Shown here: piece after piece, positions 410-34,634 of the stretch | Layout of the letters: every line of letters starts with the position of its first letter | Numbering within the stretch: position 1 is the stretch's first letter | Source of the DNA: a virus | Length of the DNA stretch: 42,663 nucleotides | IMG/VR virus record: IMGVR_UViG_3300011432_000028 | Span: 1-42,663 of that record | Strand: one strand, 5' to 3' | Made by a program: the position numbers and the translations under genes | The notes under the pieces: model-generated | The model's input: the letters and a program-made list of their open reading frames with translations, nothing else | Databases searched by the model: none | What the model was told of the DNA's origin: nothing

Positions 410-622
410 TTACGATCCACTCGTGTCTGTGCTTTTTGTCCATATTCTCATCCTATCTGACGTGTCAAGTCCGACGAGTGACGTTCCACCTATGTACGTG
501 TTGCAGATAGCGCATAGGTGGTTGTCACGTGATGGAGGATCACATGCTTGTATGGTGCGATCAATCAGTTTGCAGCGATCTTCCTCGTCTTCACGCTCGC
601 ATCGCTTCGCGTATGCGGTCAT
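410..622 (-). CDS. Small hypothetical protein with CxxC motif
   Basis: This gene encodes 70 residues with a charged N-terminal third and a CAIC pair near the middle. Its ATG overlaps the TGA of the upstream gene (619-804) in an ATGA arrangement, a usual sign of translational coupling, which is the best evidence that it is real. It has no membrane segment and no family I recognise. A 9-bp inverted repeat (486-494 with 513-521) lies inside it and could be chance. Only one CxxC pair is present, so zinc binding is not secure. Confidence 0.45.
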   Translation of the reverse strand: MTAYAKRCEREDEEDRCKLIDRTIQACDPPSRDNHLCAICNTYIGGTSLVGLDTSDRMRIWTKSTDTSGS

Positions 623-804
623 CGCTGCATCACCTGCGCTTCCACGTTAGCGCGTGTGCGCTCCGCATCCTCTGCGAGTCCTGCAAGACCGAGACTCGTG
701 TATTCGTCTCGCATCGCTCCGAGTGAAGTCAGGATACGTATGTAATCAGCGGCAGTCAGCGTAACCGCATACGTTCCCATTTTCACACGTTCGGAATTTT
801 CCAC
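619..804 (-). CDS. Small hypothetical protein, first gene of left minus-strand operon
   Basis: This gene encodes 61 residues from a GTG start at 804 with a GGAGG ribosome site (CCTCC on the plus strand at 809-813). The C-terminal two thirds are probably helical (leucine, alanine and charged residues) and the protein looks soluble. It is the first gene after the divergent regulatory region and is coupled to the next gene by an ATGA overlap. The outer arm of the inverted repeat at 820-962 ends only 7 bases upstream of its ribosome site, so on the minus transcript that structure would sit in its leader. No family is recognised. Confidence 0.55.
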   Translation of the reverse strand: MENSERVKMGTYAVTLTAADYIRILTSLGAMRDEYTSLGLAGLAEDAERTRANVEAQVMQR

Positions 805-819
805 GTTTCCTCCGTTTCT

Positions 820-962
820 ACGAAGTTACGTAAGGGGCACTAGACGCATTGCCCACGTGGGCGAGTTGATTGCGCGTGACGCGGCGATGATGATCGCAGT
901 AAGCGGCGTGTGCCGCGTCGTCGCAATGCATAGCGTTTTACGTGCCCCTTGCGTAACCTCGT
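820..962. ncRNA. Large nested inverted repeat / candidate structured RNA or replication element
   Basis: The outer arms 820-840 and 942-962 are complementary over 21 positions with two exceptions (824 with 958, 831 with 951); on each strand one of these becomes a G-U wobble. Inside lie a perfect 12-base palindrome (851-862, CACGTG core) and a second long hairpin pairing 869-874 with 922-927 and 878-885 with 912-919, with a 26-base loop. This reads as a three-way junction with a long basal stem. It sits between the divergent minus operon (starts at 804) and the plus gene (starts at 1091). It could be a leader RNA of either unit, a free RNA, or a DNA element such as an origin or operator. Pairing is seen directly; the role is inference. 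Confidence 0.5.
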
Positions 963-1054
963 TCTGCCCTACAACTTCACCCTATGGGCACTGTCAAATA
1001 GTTGCTACTTGCAGGGACTATGCACACCTAGTTGATATGTGCTTTACTTCCGGC

Positions 1055-1090: not shown

Positions 1091-1603
1091 ATGGATCGGA
1101 TCGTAGATACCGTGACGAGGGAGAGTGTGACCCTCGGAGACTTGGTTGTTGAACGCGCGATCATGAATCGCGACCGCGCTACTCGTGAAGTCGAATACGT
1201 GATGCGCCATGAAGGGTCGAACGAGGGACGCGGAACGGTCGAGCATGTCGCGTCGAGTATCAATGCGACCGAGGTACGCGTCACACCTCGCCTACGTGTG
1301 CGACGTAACGACGCCTGGCAGGACGGCTACCTAGAACTGTCGCGCGACATGGAGCGCAACCATGCAGTTCGGCGCGACATGCAAAGCGAGTGCATTTCGA
1401 TCAGGGTGCCTATCTGGTACCTCGCCGCTGTGGGTGCTGAGAAGGCAGCTGACAGCCACCGGCACCTGGGGGTGTCCTTCTCTGCACCTGAGACTGAGCG
1501 CACGGCTAAGCAACGCTCACGGCCCACCATGAAAGCGTCAGAGGTGAGAGCGGCGAAGCTTCGCGCTATCGCGGGCACGATCCGGATGGCTGAGCAAGAC
1601 TGA
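1091..1603 (+). CDS. Hypothetical protein, orphan plus-strand gene
   Basis: This gene encodes 170 residues. The ATG at 1091 has a near-perfect ribosome site (AAAGGGAGG, 5 bases spacing). The same frame stays open up to 857, but that extension would run through the inverted-repeat element and lacks a good ribosome site. The protein is rich in arginine, glutamate and alanine, with a helical C-terminal tail (KASEVRAAKLRAIAGTIRMA), no cysteine cluster and no membrane segment. It stands alone: structured region upstream, strong terminator 16 bases downstream. Local composition is higher in GC than the virion block (about 62% in one 60-base line counted). An early or regulatory role is a guess from position; no family is recognised. 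Confidence 0.65.
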   Translation: MDRIVDTVTRESVTLGDLVVERAIMNRDRATREVEYVMRHEGSNEGRGTVEHVASSINATEVRVTPRLRVRRNDAWQDGYLELSRDMERNHAVRRDMQSECISIRVPIWYLAAVGAEKAADSHRHLGVSFSAPETERTAKQRSRPTMKASEVRAAKLRAIAGTIRMAEQD

Positions 1604-2913: not shown

Positions 2914-3411
2914 ATGGCAACTATTGTCTTCCAACCAATGAGTCAGCTTGTGACTGACTATGTGATGGGCGCATCGGGCACAGAAGTACCGCCTGCTGCG
3001 TGGACGATGGGACTTAGCACGACTGTAGTGGGATCGGGTTCTAACATGATGCGAAACAGCGTTTGGTCGGTTACCATCTCAGGGTCGAACGTCAATGAAA
3101 TTGGTTCGGGTACTGCGAACGGTTATGCACGTCAGACCATCGCTAAGTCGATCAACACGGGTTCTATCGACTGGGGTACGTCTACCTTCGATAACACGTT
3201 CTCCACGGGAGGACAATCAACTGCCGCTGATCAGGTTACGTTTGGTGCGTTCTCAGGAGCACCATCCCCCAACGGTGCAAACTCGTGGGCATTGACCGCA
3301 GGTACGACTATCAACGCAGGCGATCTATGGTTCGCTGCTGATACTGCTGCAACGCGCACGTTTGCTAACGGCGACACAGAAAAGGTTACTGCCACGCTTA
3401 AAGCAGGTTAG
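2914..3411 (+). CDS. Putative virion structural protein (beta-sandwich type)
   Basis: This gene encodes 165 residues rich in Thr, Ser, Gly, Ala and Asn and poor in Lys and charge, typical of surface beta proteins of tailed phages. The segment ANGYARQTIAKS followed by strands and a WALTAGTTINAGDLWFAAD stretch resembles small virion proteins that decorate capsids or fibres. I do not see a motif that decides between the two. It begins the run of beta-rich genes that continues to 14963. Confidence 0.6.
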   Translation: MATIVFQPMSQLVTDYVMGASGTEVPPAAWTMGLSTTVVGSGSNMMRNSVWSVTISGSNVNEIGSGTANGYARQTIAKSINTGSIDWGTSTFDNTFSTGGQSTAADQVTFGAFSGAPSPNGANSWALTAGTTINAGDLWFAADTAATRTFANGDTEKVTATLKAG

Positions 3412-4789: not shown

Positions 4790-6735
4790 TGTACTATCTT
4801 CCCTTTGGTTGGGCAGCTAATGATGATGCGTTCGATGAGATCGCTTTTCTGTATCTTGGAGAGCCGTTCTACGTTCTTGATGCTGGTGTAGCTGATGCTG
4901 CGACTGTACTAGTCGATCTCCAAGTCAGTGACACACAGGTCTTTGAGGGTACTGATGCGGCAACAGTTCTTGTCGATCTACAAGCTAGTGGCACTGACGA
5001 ATATACAGTAGCTGTCGAGTATACCGATGCTGAAACTATCTATCTTGATATTCGTGTACGTGGTGTAGAAGAAGGTATCTTTTGGGATACCTTTGAGAAT
5101 CTCGACGCTTGGGAGATCGATGACAACTCGGGTTTTGGCGCCCCCGCCTATATCACCAAGCGACATGCAACCGAGGGTCTGACGAGTCTACGGTATACGG
5201 TAGACAACGTATATGGCTCCCCCGCATACTATCAGTGGATCGACCTAGACAACGGCGATAACCCCGCGATCCAATATTGGCTTTCCTTCGCATTTAGGAT
5301 TGAGGATTGGGAACGGGTGTGGCGCAACGGTGATGGATCTCCATTTTGGCTCCCTATAGACTTTGCTAGCGAAATAGATTTTGGTGGCACAGTAGGTGCG
5401 ACGCCACTAATAAGAGCCGTTTCTGAAACTACCGGAGAAATTGGGTTCTTCGATGGGACTACTACTACTTGGACTGCGATAAATGCTGACCAGTGGTATA
5501 GAGTTCAAATCGGCTGGCAAAACGACGGAACTGATATCGTTTATGAGGTCTGGTTTGAGGGGGCATTGGAAATCGTCAGTGATCCTGTATGGCTAGGTAG
5601 CAACCAACCTCAGTGGATTCCCAAAGGCCTTTTGATGTGGTCGGATAACGGCAACGTATCCGGTACAGTCTACCTAGATGATGTGATCTATAGCCTCGAT
5701 GTGCAGCCTAGGCAACCCTCGATTGTCGAGAGCGCACCTGGGACTACAGATAAGCAGTGGGTGAAAATGCGTGAGCGAGGGTTCGGAGGGTTCGGCAACA
5801 CAGGAGTATGGATTGAACTCGACCCCGACTATCTCGATACGGTAACTGAAGCCTATCTCTACGCAGAAGTCTACATCCCTCAAGTTCTTCTTGATACTCT
5901 AAGTAACAATGAATTTACTAATAATTTCTTAGAGACAGATCAGTTTCAACTACGTATTGTAAAAAGATTAGGTGTCAACAAATGGTGGACTGATAGTAGC
6001 CACGAATTCGGTACGGTCGTAGGCGATCGGTGGTACCGTGTTGCTTGGCACGAAGTCGCAGGAGTAGGAACTTACGATATTTACATCGATGATGATCTGT
6101 ACACTGGTGGCTATTTTGTCGCTCCTACGGGAATCAACTATATGGGGGCGTTTCCTCCTAGAGCTGACGAAGCCATAAACGATATGAGTTGGATCGGGGT
6201 AGACAATCTTGCATTTTCGCTCACTGGTTGGGTTCGCTCTGACAACTTTGACATGCATTGGGACTTTGAGGGACTAGATCCACTTTATGATGCAGTCGCC
6301 AATTATCCCACGCCTCCACGTTTTGCAGAATTCGGCGATGGAAACTACGTCCCATCACTTGAGGAAGGTGGCATTGGCCCTGGGCCTGGTTTACCTGATC
6401 CTCTTACGACCGAGACAGCGGAAGTCTTGCTTACTCTGTCCATCGAGAGTCTTGAGATTTTCTCAACTACGTTCGATGCTGCTCAGGTATACCTTCAATT
6501 CTACGTTCCCTTCTTCTCAGGGCAGGAAGCATATGGCTCCGCAGAGGAAGCAACCATTACGCTCGACTTGCAACCTGGCGGTGGAGAGTGTCACTCTACG
6601 TGGATAGCAACATTCTTAGGCGAAGGTGAAGCCTATCTTGAGTTTTATACCTCTGTGGAGACTTTGGAGTGGTCCGGCGATGAAGAACTTGAATGGTCAT
6701 TTGGCGATGTAGTTACCGAAGGGATTAACTGTTAA
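4789..6735 (+). CDS. Large repeat-flanked adhesin/fibre protein with ConA-like domains
   Basis: This gene encodes 648 residues. Residues about 33-100 contain three copies of a 20-residue repeat with core DAATVLVDLQ, the same repeat that fills the protein at 11989-14664. Two jelly-roll (concanavalin/LamG-like) domains follow, at about 100-310 and 320-490, each with W-Y-R-V and Y-L-D-D-hydrophobic strands typical of that fold. After a Gly/Pro linker the repeat pattern returns near residue 550, and the tail carries Trp-containing strands (LEWSGDEELEWSFGDV). The low Lys content, high Asp/Glu and lack of a signal peptide fit a virion surface protein. It overlaps both neighbours by one base. Receptor or glycan binding is likely from the fold but unproven. 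Confidence 0.7.
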   Translation: MYYLPFGWAANDDAFDEIAFLYLGEPFYVLDAGVADAATVLVDLQVSDTQVFEGTDAATVLVDLQASGTDEYTVAVEYTDAETIYLDIRVRGVEEGIFWDTFENLDAWEIDDNSGFGAPAYITKRHATEGLTSLRYTVDNVYGSPAYYQWIDLDNGDNPAIQYWLSFAFRIEDWERVWRNGDGSPFWLPIDFASEIDFGGTVGATPLIRAVSETTGEIGFFDGTTTTWTAINADQWYRVQIGWQNDGTDIVYEVWFEGALEIVSDPVWLGSNQPQWIPKGLLMWSDNGNVSGTVYLDDVIYSLDVQPRQPSIVESAPGTTDKQWVKMRERGFGGFGNTGVWIELDPDYLDTVTEAYLYAEVYIPQVLLDTLSNNEFTNNFLETDQFQLRIVKRLGVNKWWTDSSHEFGTVVGDRWYRVAWHEVAGVGTYDIYIDDDLYTGGYFVAPTGINYMGAFPPRADEAINDMSWIGVDNLAFSLTGWVRSDNFDMHWDFEGLDPLYDAVANYPTPPRFAEFGDGNYVPSLEEGGIGPGPGLPDPLTTETAEVLLTLSIESLEIFSTTFDAAQVYLQFYVPFFSGQEAYGSAEEATITLDLQPGGGECHSTWIATFLGEGEAYLEFYTSVETLEWSGDEELEWSFGDVVTEGINC

Positions 6736-11988: not shown

Positions 11989-14664
11989 TTGGCTACCTTT
12001 GTTGCTTCTGGCGTTACGTTCAATACTACAAGTGGTAATAAGACCGTTGTATTAACACCTGCTCTGGGTGAACTACTTGTCGTTATCGTAGCCAACTCGG
12101 GTAGCACTGCTCCGCCTACAGTTACAGATGATCAAGGTGGAGTTTATAATCGGCTAACGCCTACGCCGGTTAAAGCCACTAGTGCAGATTCTATGTTCGT
12201 CTATGTACGAACACAGCGTATAGAATCCGCAGTATCTACTACCGTCACCATGACGCCAGGTACTACGTCAGGTGGCGGCCTTGCTGTTATTAGAGTTGCC
12301 GGGATGTTCCGCGCGGGTTCTATTGCTGTTCGACAGGTCGCAGAACAGGATAACCAGGGCGCTGCGACTACGCCTGCTCCCGTGTTCCCCGGTGTCGCGC
12401 TAACAGGAAACATGATTATTGGTGCGGTGTTCAATGCTACGAACCCCGCGACACAGACTATTCCATCGGGATTCGCTGCTGAACGTCATGATGTAGGATA
12501 TAACACTCCTGCATCGGGTCTGCACGTTGTAACTCGTGATAACGGTCATACAAGTGCCACTGTTACGTGGGGTTCAACGTCCTCTGCGTTTTGTTCAGTC
12601 ACGATCGAGCTAGATGCTACAGATTTTGCTGCGGGGCCGGTAACACATCGGTTTACTAGACCTCCCTACGAGATAATCCGTAGACGACTGCCATTTCCGG
12701 CACAGAATTTCTTTGGAGTGGTTACTCCTACAGTTGAGTATACCGATGCTGCCACGGTACTGCTTGATATCCAATTGTCGGCCACAGAACTAGCTGAGTT
12801 CGTAGAGGCTGCCACTCTTCTTGTCGATCTCCAAGTTGTTTCCACCGAGGAACATACTACTTTTGATACTGCGACTATTTTTGTGGATCTTCAAGTTGTC
12901 AGTACCGAGCTACAGGAAGCAGTAGATACAGCAACCATCTATTTTGACTTACAAGCTAGCACTACTGCTGAAGTAGCTGAATTTGTAGATGCACAGGAGG
13001 TATATTTTGATATTCAAGTCGCGTCAACCGAAACAGCGCAGTTCGTTGAATCGGCTACTATACCTCTTGTTATTACCCCCACTAGTTCTGATATTGCTCA
13101 GTTTGTGGATACTCAGACGGTTGGGCTTATTCTTACAGCGTCCGGCGCAGATGTACTAGATACCGTTGAAGCTGATTCCGTATTAGTTGATCTACAAGCT
13201 AGCGGTGTCGAACTACACGAAGCTGTAGACACACAAGAGGTATACCTCGACATACAAGCGTCGGGCACTGATAGTATTACGACGGAATATACCGATGCTG
13301 CCGAAGCATATCTAGACCTTCAAGTAGAGAGTGCCGAACTTCAAGAAGCGACAGATTCTGCTGAAGTCTATGTCGATATTCAAGTCGAGTCGGTCGAAGA
13401 ATCTATAGAACTCACTCCAACTTGGATACAAAGTCCGCCTCCTGTTGCTATCCCCTATGCATTTATTCTTAAGCGGCCAGCACTTCCCGCACAAGATTCC
13501 GGCTATGCAACGGGTGTTGAACTAACAGATGCGGAGACTGTCTATGTTGATCTCCAAATTACGTCAGATAATACCGCGCAATTGGTGGATGCGGATACTG
13601 TGTATCTGGATATTGTGGGAACTGCTACTGATATTGCTGAGTTTGTTGATTCTGCACAAGTGGGGCTTCTACTCGTGGTATCTTCACTGGATATTGCAGA
13701 ACTAGTAGAGGTACAGGAGGTATATCTTGATCTCCAAGCCAGTGCAACTGACGTTGCCGACTTCGTTGATGCCGAAACCGTGTATCTCGATGTCCAAGGA
13801 ACCGGAACCGAAATCCTTGAGGCTGCTGAATCCACAGAAGTCTATCTCACCATCCAAGCCGTCAGTACAGATGTCCTTGAAGCTGTAGATGCTGCTGAAG
13901 TCTATCTGGACATCCTCGGTACGGGTGTCGATGAGATATCCGGTACGACCGAGGATACCGCTACAGTCTATCTTGACCTGTCACTCACAGACGTACAAGT
14001 CGCTGATCTTGTTGACGTTGCTGAGATTTACCTCGACGTAAGCATAACGTCCTCCGAGGAACACACGACCTCCGATGATGCTCAGGTCTACCTTGATCTT
14101 GAAGGCACAGGCACCGATGTCTACGAAGCGGGCGGCGTCGCTAATACCGACAGTGCGACTGTCTACCTCGATCTATCGCTGACCGACACCCAAGTCTTTG
14201 ATGCTGTTGATGCACAGACCGTGCTGATCGATCTAAGAGCACTGAGCAGCGATGTCGCGGTCTTTACCGACTCCTCTGTGCTGCCCTTGACTCTAACGCC
14301 CGGTTTCCTTGAGTTCGCAACCTTTGTGGACTCAGCGACCGTCCGGGTTGATCTAGATGTGTTGTTTACGGATCTACTTGACGTTGTAGATACCGCAACA
14401 GTTACGGTTCGGATTCTACCTACTTCTACGGACGTTGCAGATTACTCAGATGAGGCACAGGTATATCTCGATATTCAGCCGTCGGCCGTTTTCCTGCAAG
14501 TTGATTTCCTACTTGAGATAGTCGGAGTAACTACCCGGTGGACAATGAGCGTACCCTTGGCTCGCTGGACAATGGGCACCACGCCCGTCGTCCGCTGGAA
14601 GGTGCTAGAGATATTTGCTCGGTGGGCAATGCTAGAAACAAGGAGGTTCTCGTGGAAGCGTTGA
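11989..14664 (+). CDS. Giant 27-copy 20-residue repeat protein (fibre/stalk)
   Basis: This gene encodes 891 residues from a TTG immediately after the previous stop. Residues 1-215 form a beta domain typical of phage fibre tips or anchors (VASGVTFNTTSGNKTVVLTP). A Pro/aromatic linker (RPPYEIIRRRLPFPAQ) follows, then 11 tandem 20-residue repeats (residues 253-474), a second similar linker (IPYAFILKRPALPAQ), and 16 more repeats (514-840). The consensus is about D-x-[AQ]-[TE]-V-Y-[LV]-D-[LI]-Q-x-S-x-T-[DE]-x-x-x-x-V. The last 45 residues carry Trp-based units (RWTM...RWTM...RWKV...RWAM). The protein is very acidic. Regular beta repeats suggest an elongated rod. It overlaps the next gene by 13 bases. 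Confidence 0.75.
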   Translation: MATFVASGVTFNTTSGNKTVVLTPALGELLVVIVANSGSTAPPTVTDDQGGVYNRLTPTPVKATSADSMFVYVRTQRIESAVSTTVTMTPGTTSGGGLAVIRVAGMFRAGSIAVRQVAEQDNQGAATTPAPVFPGVALTGNMIIGAVFNATNPATQTIPSGFAAERHDVGYNTPASGLHVVTRDNGHTSATVTWGSTSSAFCSVTIELDATDFAAGPVTHRFTRPPYEIIRRRLPFPAQNFFGVVTPTVEYTDAATVLLDIQLSATELAEFVEAATLLVDLQVVSTEEHTTFDTATIFVDLQVVSTELQEAVDTATIYFDLQASTTAEVAEFVDAQEVYFDIQVASTETAQFVESATIPLVITPTSSDIAQFVDTQTVGLILTASGADVLDTVEADSVLVDLQASGVELHEAVDTQEVYLDIQASGTDSITTEYTDAAEAYLDLQVESAELQEATDSAEVYVDIQVESVEESIELTPTWIQSPPPVAIPYAFILKRPALPAQDSGYATGVELTDAETVYVDLQITSDNTAQLVDADTVYLDIVGTATDIAEFVDSAQVGLLLVVSSLDIAELVEVQEVYLDLQASATDVADFVDAETVYLDVQGTGTEILEAAESTEVYLTIQAVSTDVLEAVDAAEVYLDILGTGVDEISGTTEDTATVYLDLSLTDVQVADLVDVAEIYLDVSITSSEEHTTSDDAQVYLDLEGTGTDVYEAGGVANTDSATVYLDLSLTDTQVFDAVDAQTVLIDLRALSSDVAVFTDSSVLPLTLTPGFLEFATFVDSATVRVDLDVLFTDLLDVVDTATVTVRILPTSTDVADYSDEAQVYLDIQPSAVFLQVDFLLEIVGVTTRWTMSVPLARWTMGTTPVVRWKVLEIFARWAMLETRRFSWKR
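12745..13410 (+). repeat. Repeat array 1: eleven coding units of about 60 bp
   Basis: Eleven tandem, degenerate units encode 20 residues each (one of 21, one of 22, the last of 19). Units start with Asp or Glu and keep the V-x-L-D-[LI]-Q strand; third-codon positions differ widely, so this is an old protein-level repeat rather than fresh DNA slippage. Confidence 0.8.
13528..14508 (+). repeat. Repeat array 2: sixteen coding units of about 60 bp
   Basis: Sixteen units follow the second proline-rich linker; fourteen are exactly 20 residues, one is 22 and one 25. Core [TE]-V-Y-L-D is strongest here. Units 3, 13 and 15 have lost the central Asp (VGLLL, LPLTL, VTVRI), as has unit 6 of array 1. Confidence 0.8.
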
Positions 14665-33585: not shown

Positions 33586-34041
33586 ATGTTTAGAGAACAG
33601 TTCTTACGTGCCAACGCAGTTGTACTTGAACGCTGGTTGAGACATACAGCAGACAAACTACATCAGCTAATACCAGGGTCGCCCGTCTTGGGCAACCTTC
33701 TATTCTTCAACGAAGGGACAGTGCTAATGGCTTCAATTGAAGTTCTTGATACAGCAGGCTCACTCAATGCGAGTGTTGCCTTCCTCGATGCTCATGGGCA
33801 TCCGACAACTGCCGATGATGTTCCGGCATGGTCGTCCGATAACGAGGCAGCAGTAACCGTGGCTGCTTCCGAGGATGGACTTTCCGCCGTGGCAACGGTT
33901 GTTGCACCCGGTGCAGCAATCATCTCGGTCACGTCAACTAACACTGACGGTTCTACGGCAAGTGCACAGGGTACCGTCACTGTTATGCCTGGTGACGCAG
34001 TGATTGGCGAAGTCACGTTTGAAGAGGCTGCGCCTGCCTAA
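33586..34041 (+). CDS. Ig-like (BIG2-type) domain protein
   Basis: This gene encodes 151 residues from the ATG at 33586 (AAGGAAGG upstream). Residues 1-45 are basic and helical (LRANAVVLERWLRHTADKLH). From about residue 48 there is one Ig-like domain of bacterial BIG2 type: SIEVLDTAGSLNASVAFLDA, VPAWSSDNEAAVTVAASEDG, then AIISVTSTNTDGSTASAQGT. An internal ATG at 33727 with AAGGGA upstream could give the Ig domain alone. It is the last gene of the plus-strand operon and is probably a surface or accessory structural protein. Confidence 0.6.
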   Translation: MFREQFLRANAVVLERWLRHTADKLHQLIPGSPVLGNLLFFNEGTVLMASIEVLDTAGSLNASVAFLDAHGHPTTADDVPAWSSDNEAAVTVAASEDGLSAVATVVAPGAAIISVTSTNTDGSTASAQGTVTVMPGDAVIGEVTFEEAAPA

Positions 34042-34044
34042 CTT

Positions 34045-34156
34045 AACCCTCTGATGAGGGTTGAGCGGGAACGGGAGCCATAGAAGAACGTCGGTGCTGC
34101 AACTCCCGTTCCCACCTTAATAGGGCCACTGTTCTCTCTCCGGCAGTGGCCCTATT
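34045..34156. terminator. Triple hairpin between convergent operons (bidirectional terminator)
   Basis: Three inverted repeats fill the gap. Arms 34045-34051 with 34056-34062 give 7 bp. Arms 34067-34077 with 34103-34113 give 11 perfect bp around a 25-base loop. Arms 34119-34131 with 34144-34156 give 13 perfect bp around a 12-base loop, overlapping the stop of the minus gene and followed by ATTTG on the plus strand. The place between convergent units argues for two-way termination. The middle hairpin with its large loop is unusual for a terminator. Confidence 0.75.
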
Positions 34157-34634
34157 ATTTGTCTACAAGCACAAATGCAGGATCTTTCACATACTGAGCA
34201 CCCGCTCCAAACTTCAACCAGTATAGCAGATGCTTGGTAGCCGACCGTGCGTGACCCTTACCGTGCGGCCAGTAGGCACCTAGCTCTTTCAGCCTAGCGT
34301 CATTGAAGAATGCCTTTGATCCTTGGATCGACGGTTGCTGTTTGTACAACATCCTTGTGTCTTGGAATATCTCAATGACACCAATTAACTTGGCAGGCGT
34401 CAGGTCAAGTCCAGTACGCACACCTTGTCTAAACAGGAAGTCCTCGTAGACGATTGCGAAGGCAGGCTCATGCGTATTGATCAAATTTTCCAGATACCAG
34501 TGCATCCCCCGAGAGTCAAGTCTGCGCTCTGCCGGGTACAGTGTAACTACACCGTCATCGATCGATGCAAAACAAATGCCCGTTGTACCTCCGGGGTCTA
34601 GTGCTACTACTTTCATGCTGTTACCAATCACCAT
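34155..34634 (-). CDS. RuvC-like nuclease
   Basis: This gene encodes 159 residues and follows AGGTGAG. It has the RNase H-like fold of phage Holliday junction resolvases: first acid in VVALDPGGTTGICFAS, second in FAIVYEDFLF, and a C-terminal helix ARSATKHLLYWL. In related proteins this helix usually carries an Asp (R-D-A), and here it is Ser, so catalysis may be altered. It would resolve recombination or replication branches before packaging. It is the last gene of the replication operon and ends inside the terminator. Confidence 0.75.
   Translation of the reverse strand: MVIGNSMKVVALDPGGTTGICFASIDDGVVTLYPAERRLDSRGMHWYLENLINTHEPAFAIVYEDFLFRQGVRTGLDLTPAKLIGVIEIFQDTRMLYKQQPSIQGSKAFFNDARLKELGAYWPHGKGHARSATKHLLYWLKFGAGAQYVKDPAFVLVDK

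Follow-up and report, generated by a model that had tools for sequence, protein, structure and literature searches.

The put and nut antitermination RNAs of lambdoid phages are structured RNAs that head early operons. In cluster K mycobacteriophages, the ESAS are imperfect inverted repeats distributed across the non-structural half of the genome, just before start codons; their arms are 17 bp long, their spacers are mostly 4-13 bp, they are tied to a 13-bp SAS, their consensus varies by subgroup and their function is unknown (PMC3203893). The authors who described them found little support for RNA hairpins (PMC3203893). Microbacterium phages of cluster EG carry 18-bp inverted repeats with a 2-bp gap and cluster O mycobacteriophages carry 17-bp repeats, in both cases as 8-10 copies in short intergenic regions, 14-22 bp upstream of leftward gene starts, and again with unknown function (PMC7302621). 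Finally, the early RNase III sites of T7 (R1.1 and others) are long imperfect stems with internal mismatches that lie between the early genes of the mRNA (PMC8708148).

The element described here, 143 bases in length, is located in the virus record IMGVR_UViG_3300011432_000028, whose 42,663 bases are referred to as the window. The late genes of the window run rightward, beginning at about 1091 or 1790, the replication genes start at the right end and run leftward, and 109-804 is filled with short ORFs that also read leftward; the element sits where the leftward early and rightward late genes diverge (Table 1). The window is incomplete at its right end, as the relative L016, which is 90% identical to it across the primase and single-strand-binding genes, extends 6.4 kb beyond. 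In the relatives, the gene map fits a circle in which the leftward early genes come immediately ahead of the late genes. A family match was sought for the 61-aa ORF and none was found, while the divergent 170-aa ORF additionally has a weak syntenic match in L028/L029. Weak relatives of the 170-aa product occur in other early regions (L035 697-831, L028/L029, L068, L045 and L060), share the motif RVPxWYL and in some cases lie on the opposite strand; they make up a small, unannotated family of mobile early proteins. Elsewhere in the window, the strongest fold of all (34001-34176) lies at the convergent ends of both gene blocks and probably represents paired terminators, and at least nine repeats of ~39 nt, often in 60-base steps, fall within two long ORFs (4893-5051 and 12733-14246) as a repeat protein common to the two genes.

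Table 1. Features at the early/late divergence of the window.
Feature	Position	Strand	Remarks
61-aa ORF	619..804	-	starts with GTG; heads the leftward early unit inside the window
GGAGG, ribosome binding site ahead of the first minus gene	809..813	-	6 nt from stem end
Long-stem element, putative leader	820..962	-	143 bases; folds with z -6.6 on both strands; architecture recurs in relatives
Outer-stem 3' arm of minus-strand RNA	820..840	-	GUGCCCCUUACGUAACUUCGU; C.A mismatch 12 pairs from base
12-base perfect palindrome GCCCACGTGGGC, first inner hairpin	851..862	either strand	
Second inner hairpin	867..928	either strand	RNA folding
Outer-stem 5' arm of minus-strand RNA	942..962	-	ACGAGGUUACGCAAGGGGCAC
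Promoter-like motif TTGACA-N7-TAGGGT	979..997	-	ends 16 nt ahead of 5' arm
Divergent 170-aa ORF	1091..1603	+	relative in L035, same strand (E 5e-7)

The original prediction held that an outer stem, an inner palindrome and a second hairpin nest here without crossing, with pairing well above chance, and both claims are borne out. The outer arms close a 101-nt structured loop and form 19 Watson-Crick pairs, one G-U pair and one mismatch, whichever strand is considered. RNA folding of 820-962 yields -80.2 kcal/mol on the plus strand as compared to -53.8 +/- 4.0 for shuffled sequences (z -6.56), and -69.7 on the minus strand as compared to -45.1 +/- 3.7 (z -6.66); the native energy beats every shuffle on either strand, and folding with DNA parameters gives z -4.7. 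The lower energy of the plus strand is a result of composition, as the shuffled energies shift equally, and since the z-scores of the two strands are equal, the single sequence does not discriminate between them. Taken by itself, the outer stem would seldom arise by chance, although an equal-scoring stem is present in 1 of 40 whole-window shuffles. That figure, along with searches that found no sequence homologue, is what could be said for chance pairing or a decaying relic, a reading that we consider extremely improbable given the z-score of -6.6 for the whole element, its nested inner pairing and the matching architecture at comparable sites in relatives. A covariance-model scan of the element against Rfam returned zero matches, even at E 10. 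An intrinsic terminator was also considered and rejected, because there is no T-run after the stem on either side of 820-962 and the loop is not short.

The flanks of the element suggest that it belongs to the leftward unit. As predicted, it lies upstream of the plus-strand ORF at 1091 and adjoins GGAGG at 813-809, the ribosome site of the minus gene, whose start codon (GTG, 804) follows 15 nt after the stem. With a promoter-like motif 16 nt before it and a ribosome site 6 nt after it, the element would therefore make up nearly all of the 5' leader of the mRNA for the leftward early genes. The window and four close relatives together have 22 TTGACA sites on the minus strand, and TANNNT follows at a distance of 6-8 nt in 17 cases (~1 expected), at spacings of 6 (4 sites), 7 (11) and 8 (2), for each of which ~0.3 are expected. 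Sigma-70 promoters are spaced differently, and an operator is another possible identity of the motif. The promoter-then-hairpin layout is repeated in three elements of close relatives, where the motif precedes the element by 11, 18 and 42 nt (L026, L029 and L025, respectively; a promoter of standard spacing is also present in L025, at 32 nt). In the window and the close relatives with the motif, an early message would carry the element at its 5' end. Among more distant genomes, an upstream promoter match was found for just 3 of 70 elements. In its fuller form, cTTGACAG-N5/6-TANNNT(G), the motif is present on the minus strand of the window at 979-997 and 450-468 and in L025, L026, L029 and L068, and one site of the TTGACA/TANNNT type also occurs on the plus strand of L029. 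Perfect DnaA-box-like sites of the TTATCCACA type occur in L026 / G002 at relative positions -3458, -3115, -2580 and -1923, all on the minus strand, and three of the four directly precede a TTGACA motif.

Two further options are that the element leads the plus-strand gene at 1091 or is a small RNA in its own right. The lower plus-strand energy (-80.2) would fit such a role, but the z-scores are equal on both strands, the start codon at 1091 is 129 nt away from the element, and the relative of this gene in L029 has its promoter-like site between the repeat and the gene. We therefore consider a plus-strand leader or free RNA very unlikely.

Relatives of the locus were collected. A DNA search in phages returned zero copies of the element, and a search with a 16-base stem pattern and one with the 1091 protein in the same initial round each returned zero relatives. 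A stem-stem pattern search matched five contigs, and the gene at 2914-3411, when used as the query, identified 48 relative loci, out of which 17 genomes of 54-60 kb were examined. At the sensitivity used, no cultured phage or bacterial genome carries a match to this gene; the terminase and primase are nearest to those of phages of Arthrobacter, Micrococcus, Gordonia and other actinobacteria, with 26-36% identity. The group is uncultured, actinophage-like and from soil. The sole match in Rfam and tRNA scans was one tRNA-Leu in L063. The DNA polymerase reading frame of G007 (G007:C1:1828-4134) contains one in-frame TGA, and in G009 and G013 the polymerase match is in two pieces ~85-90 nt apart within one open frame, which suggests an in-frame insertion.

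The relatives carry a dispersed family of long-stem elements. A strict inverted-repeat scan, in which the loop range of 25-170 nt is fixed by the search design and repeats scoring at least 17 are termed strong, detects up to ten strong repeats per relative genome; the 17 genomes have ~60 in their upstream, early halves and ~9 in their late halves, and shuffled copies have 0. When applied to other phages, the same scan finds almost zero in Wollypog, Kurnik and T7 and several in the ESAS phage Anaya. The arms are imperfect and usually 17-30 bp long, the loops differ widely in length and are not conserved, and the sequences diverge while the pairing is kept. The window element has this architecture, as its outer stem and loop fall within these ranges, it lies in the early region and a ribosome site comes just after it. 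Its stem matches the commonest family consensus, TAGRGTTARTGAAG, at 6 of 11 positions, which is the random mode, and has a C.A mismatch in place of the mid-stem G.G; many other family copies likewise lack the consensus or the mid-stem G.G. The window copy thus belongs to the family through architecture and not through a sequence consensus. Positional orthology at about -2 kb is weakened because the L024 and L037 elements lie between two minus genes. Two candidate loop features were dropped: GTATGCC (plus strand), which was considered as a common loop motif near the junction and is confined to few relatives, and T-arm-like pieces, which occur in some loops and are not general. In G009, a 39-base hairpin (relative position -13819) is present as two tandem copies inside a larger inverted repeat.

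Almost all family repeats lie in the early-gene half, where many either separate early genes or precede an early start codon by 7-30 nt. Of the 63 strong elements, 23 have a start codon with its ribosome site 7-30 nt past the stem, as compared to a mean of 8.9 and a maximum of 17 at random positions, and 11 are preceded by a stop codon and followed by a start codon (random 2.3, maximum 7); in L024 and L038, the 5' arm opens with the stop codon that ends the gene before it. About 60% of the elements are not immediately ahead of a recognisable start.

The stems also record which strand folds. In 77 early elements, the stem wobbles read as G-U on the early strand 111 times as compared to 49 times on the other strand, giving an early-strand fraction of 0.694 that exceeds the 0.547 +/- 0.021 obtained when arms are randomly re-paired. 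True stem mismatches on the early strand are G.G in 37 cases as compared to C.C in 4, with C.A second at 27; the G.G mismatches typically lie 9-13 pairs from the base and recur in the contexts CUGCAUGAG/CUCAUGGAG and UUGAAUGAG/CUCAUUGA. Together, the wobble and mismatch biases identify RNA of the early (minus) strand as the folding strand in the family. In the orthologues L043 and L044, four compensatory double changes keep the pairing. Pairing of early-strand RNA is under selection across the family. No strand bias is seen among the 11 elements lying closest to the late genes (8 vs 11), the class whose position best matches that of the window copy. This counts against a confident strand call for the window copy, which we nevertheless infer to be transcribed on the minus strand as well.

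The near-junction elements bear directly on a DNA-level explanation, in which the repeat is a replication origin or a cruciform operator at the early/late divergence. Both strands of the window copy fold equally, the near-junction class lacks a strand bias, and the syntenic repeat in L029 sits between two divergent promoter-like sites and so would be in neither transcript; these observations speak for a DNA element in the case of the window copy. The family as a whole is RNA-strand specific with many copies per genome, no match was found when a DnaA box was sought in the window, and the local change in GC skew is also explained by gene direction. On balance, a DNA element seems improbable. Three roles were originally offered (leader RNA, free RNA and DNA element), and among them a leader for the minus unit has the best support, from the upstream motif, the downstream ribosome site and the early-strand RNA family. 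Our preferred explanation, at a little under even confidence, is that the element forms the 5' leader of the message from the leftward early genes and is one copy of a dispersed family of long-stem RNAs that head or separate early genes.

How such a leader might work can be outlined. Transcription from the TTGACA-N7-TAGGGT site (997-979) would begin ~10 nt ahead of the stem, and the leader RNA would fold into a long imperfect outer stem that closes a structured loop while leaving the ribosome site free. The stem may then be recognised by a host double-strand nuclease of the RNase III type or by a double-strand-binding protein, with the conserved mid-stem mismatch positioning the enzyme or protein, which could cut out or cap the leader, set off each early message and protect its end, in the manner of the early RNase III sites of T7 such as R1.1 (PMC8708148). 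A double-strand recognition site fits best with stems of ~20 bp or longer that have a fixed mismatch, are repeated at the fronts of early cistrons and leave the ribosome site free. An RNase III gene was sought in these phages and none was found, so the host enzyme would be needed. The function would be mRNA processing or protection, or regulation by a bound protein, and assignment of the stem to an RNase III-type enzyme or double-strand-binding protein is the more tentative step.

A related reading dispenses with processing: a phage or host protein would bind the element, which would then serve in cis as a leader for antitermination (put/nut/EAR-like) or translational control. The element is promoter-proximal in the window and close relatives, a mid-stem mismatch conserved as G.G or C.A points to specific recognition, and several copies are arrayed along early operons. 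This version strikes us as unlikely, though worth serious consideration, as most copies elsewhere are intercistronic with no nearby promoter, the loops are not conserved and there is no match to a known antitermination RNA.

Compared with the described systems, the long-stem family resembles the put/nut RNAs in being structured RNA that fronts early operons, and differs in its many intercistronic copies and in having no sequence or Rfam match to them. Like the ESAS, the elements occur several per genome ahead of early, non-structural start codons, a placement shared by the family and the window copy. They differ from the ESAS in their usually longer arms, their larger loops and the support for pairing at the RNA level; the 21-bp arms and 101-nt loop of the window copy depart from the ESAS geometry, and its start region, GAAACGGAGGAAACGTG, does not resemble the SAS, GGGATAGGAGCCC (PMC3203893). 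The cluster EG and O repeats are short, operator-like and conserved in sequence, whereas the stems described here are long, change in sequence and enclose large structured loops. Both the T7 RNase III sites and the long-stem family place long, imperfectly paired stems with internal mismatches ahead of or between the cistrons of early mRNA; the T7 loops are small, and the inverted-repeat scan of T7 found none of the long-stem family type.

The elements may represent a new class of phage RNA, comprising dispersed, fast-evolving long stems of ~20-30 bp with a conserved mid-stem G.G or C.A mismatch and a large, variable structured loop. As double-stranded RNA, they would be the target of a dedicated nuclease or binding protein through which each early message is processed or switched; we regard this broader proposal as possible, with the balance somewhat against it. 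Dispersed inverted repeats before early starts were known already, and what is new here is the length, the loop, the mismatch and the covariation at the RNA level. Such repeats occur in several actinobacteriophage clusters with no function assigned, and for the ESAS an RNA hairpin had been doubted. The many independent copies described here, with statistically supported RNA pairing, a strand and a mid-stem mismatch, make the role of these repeats directly testable.
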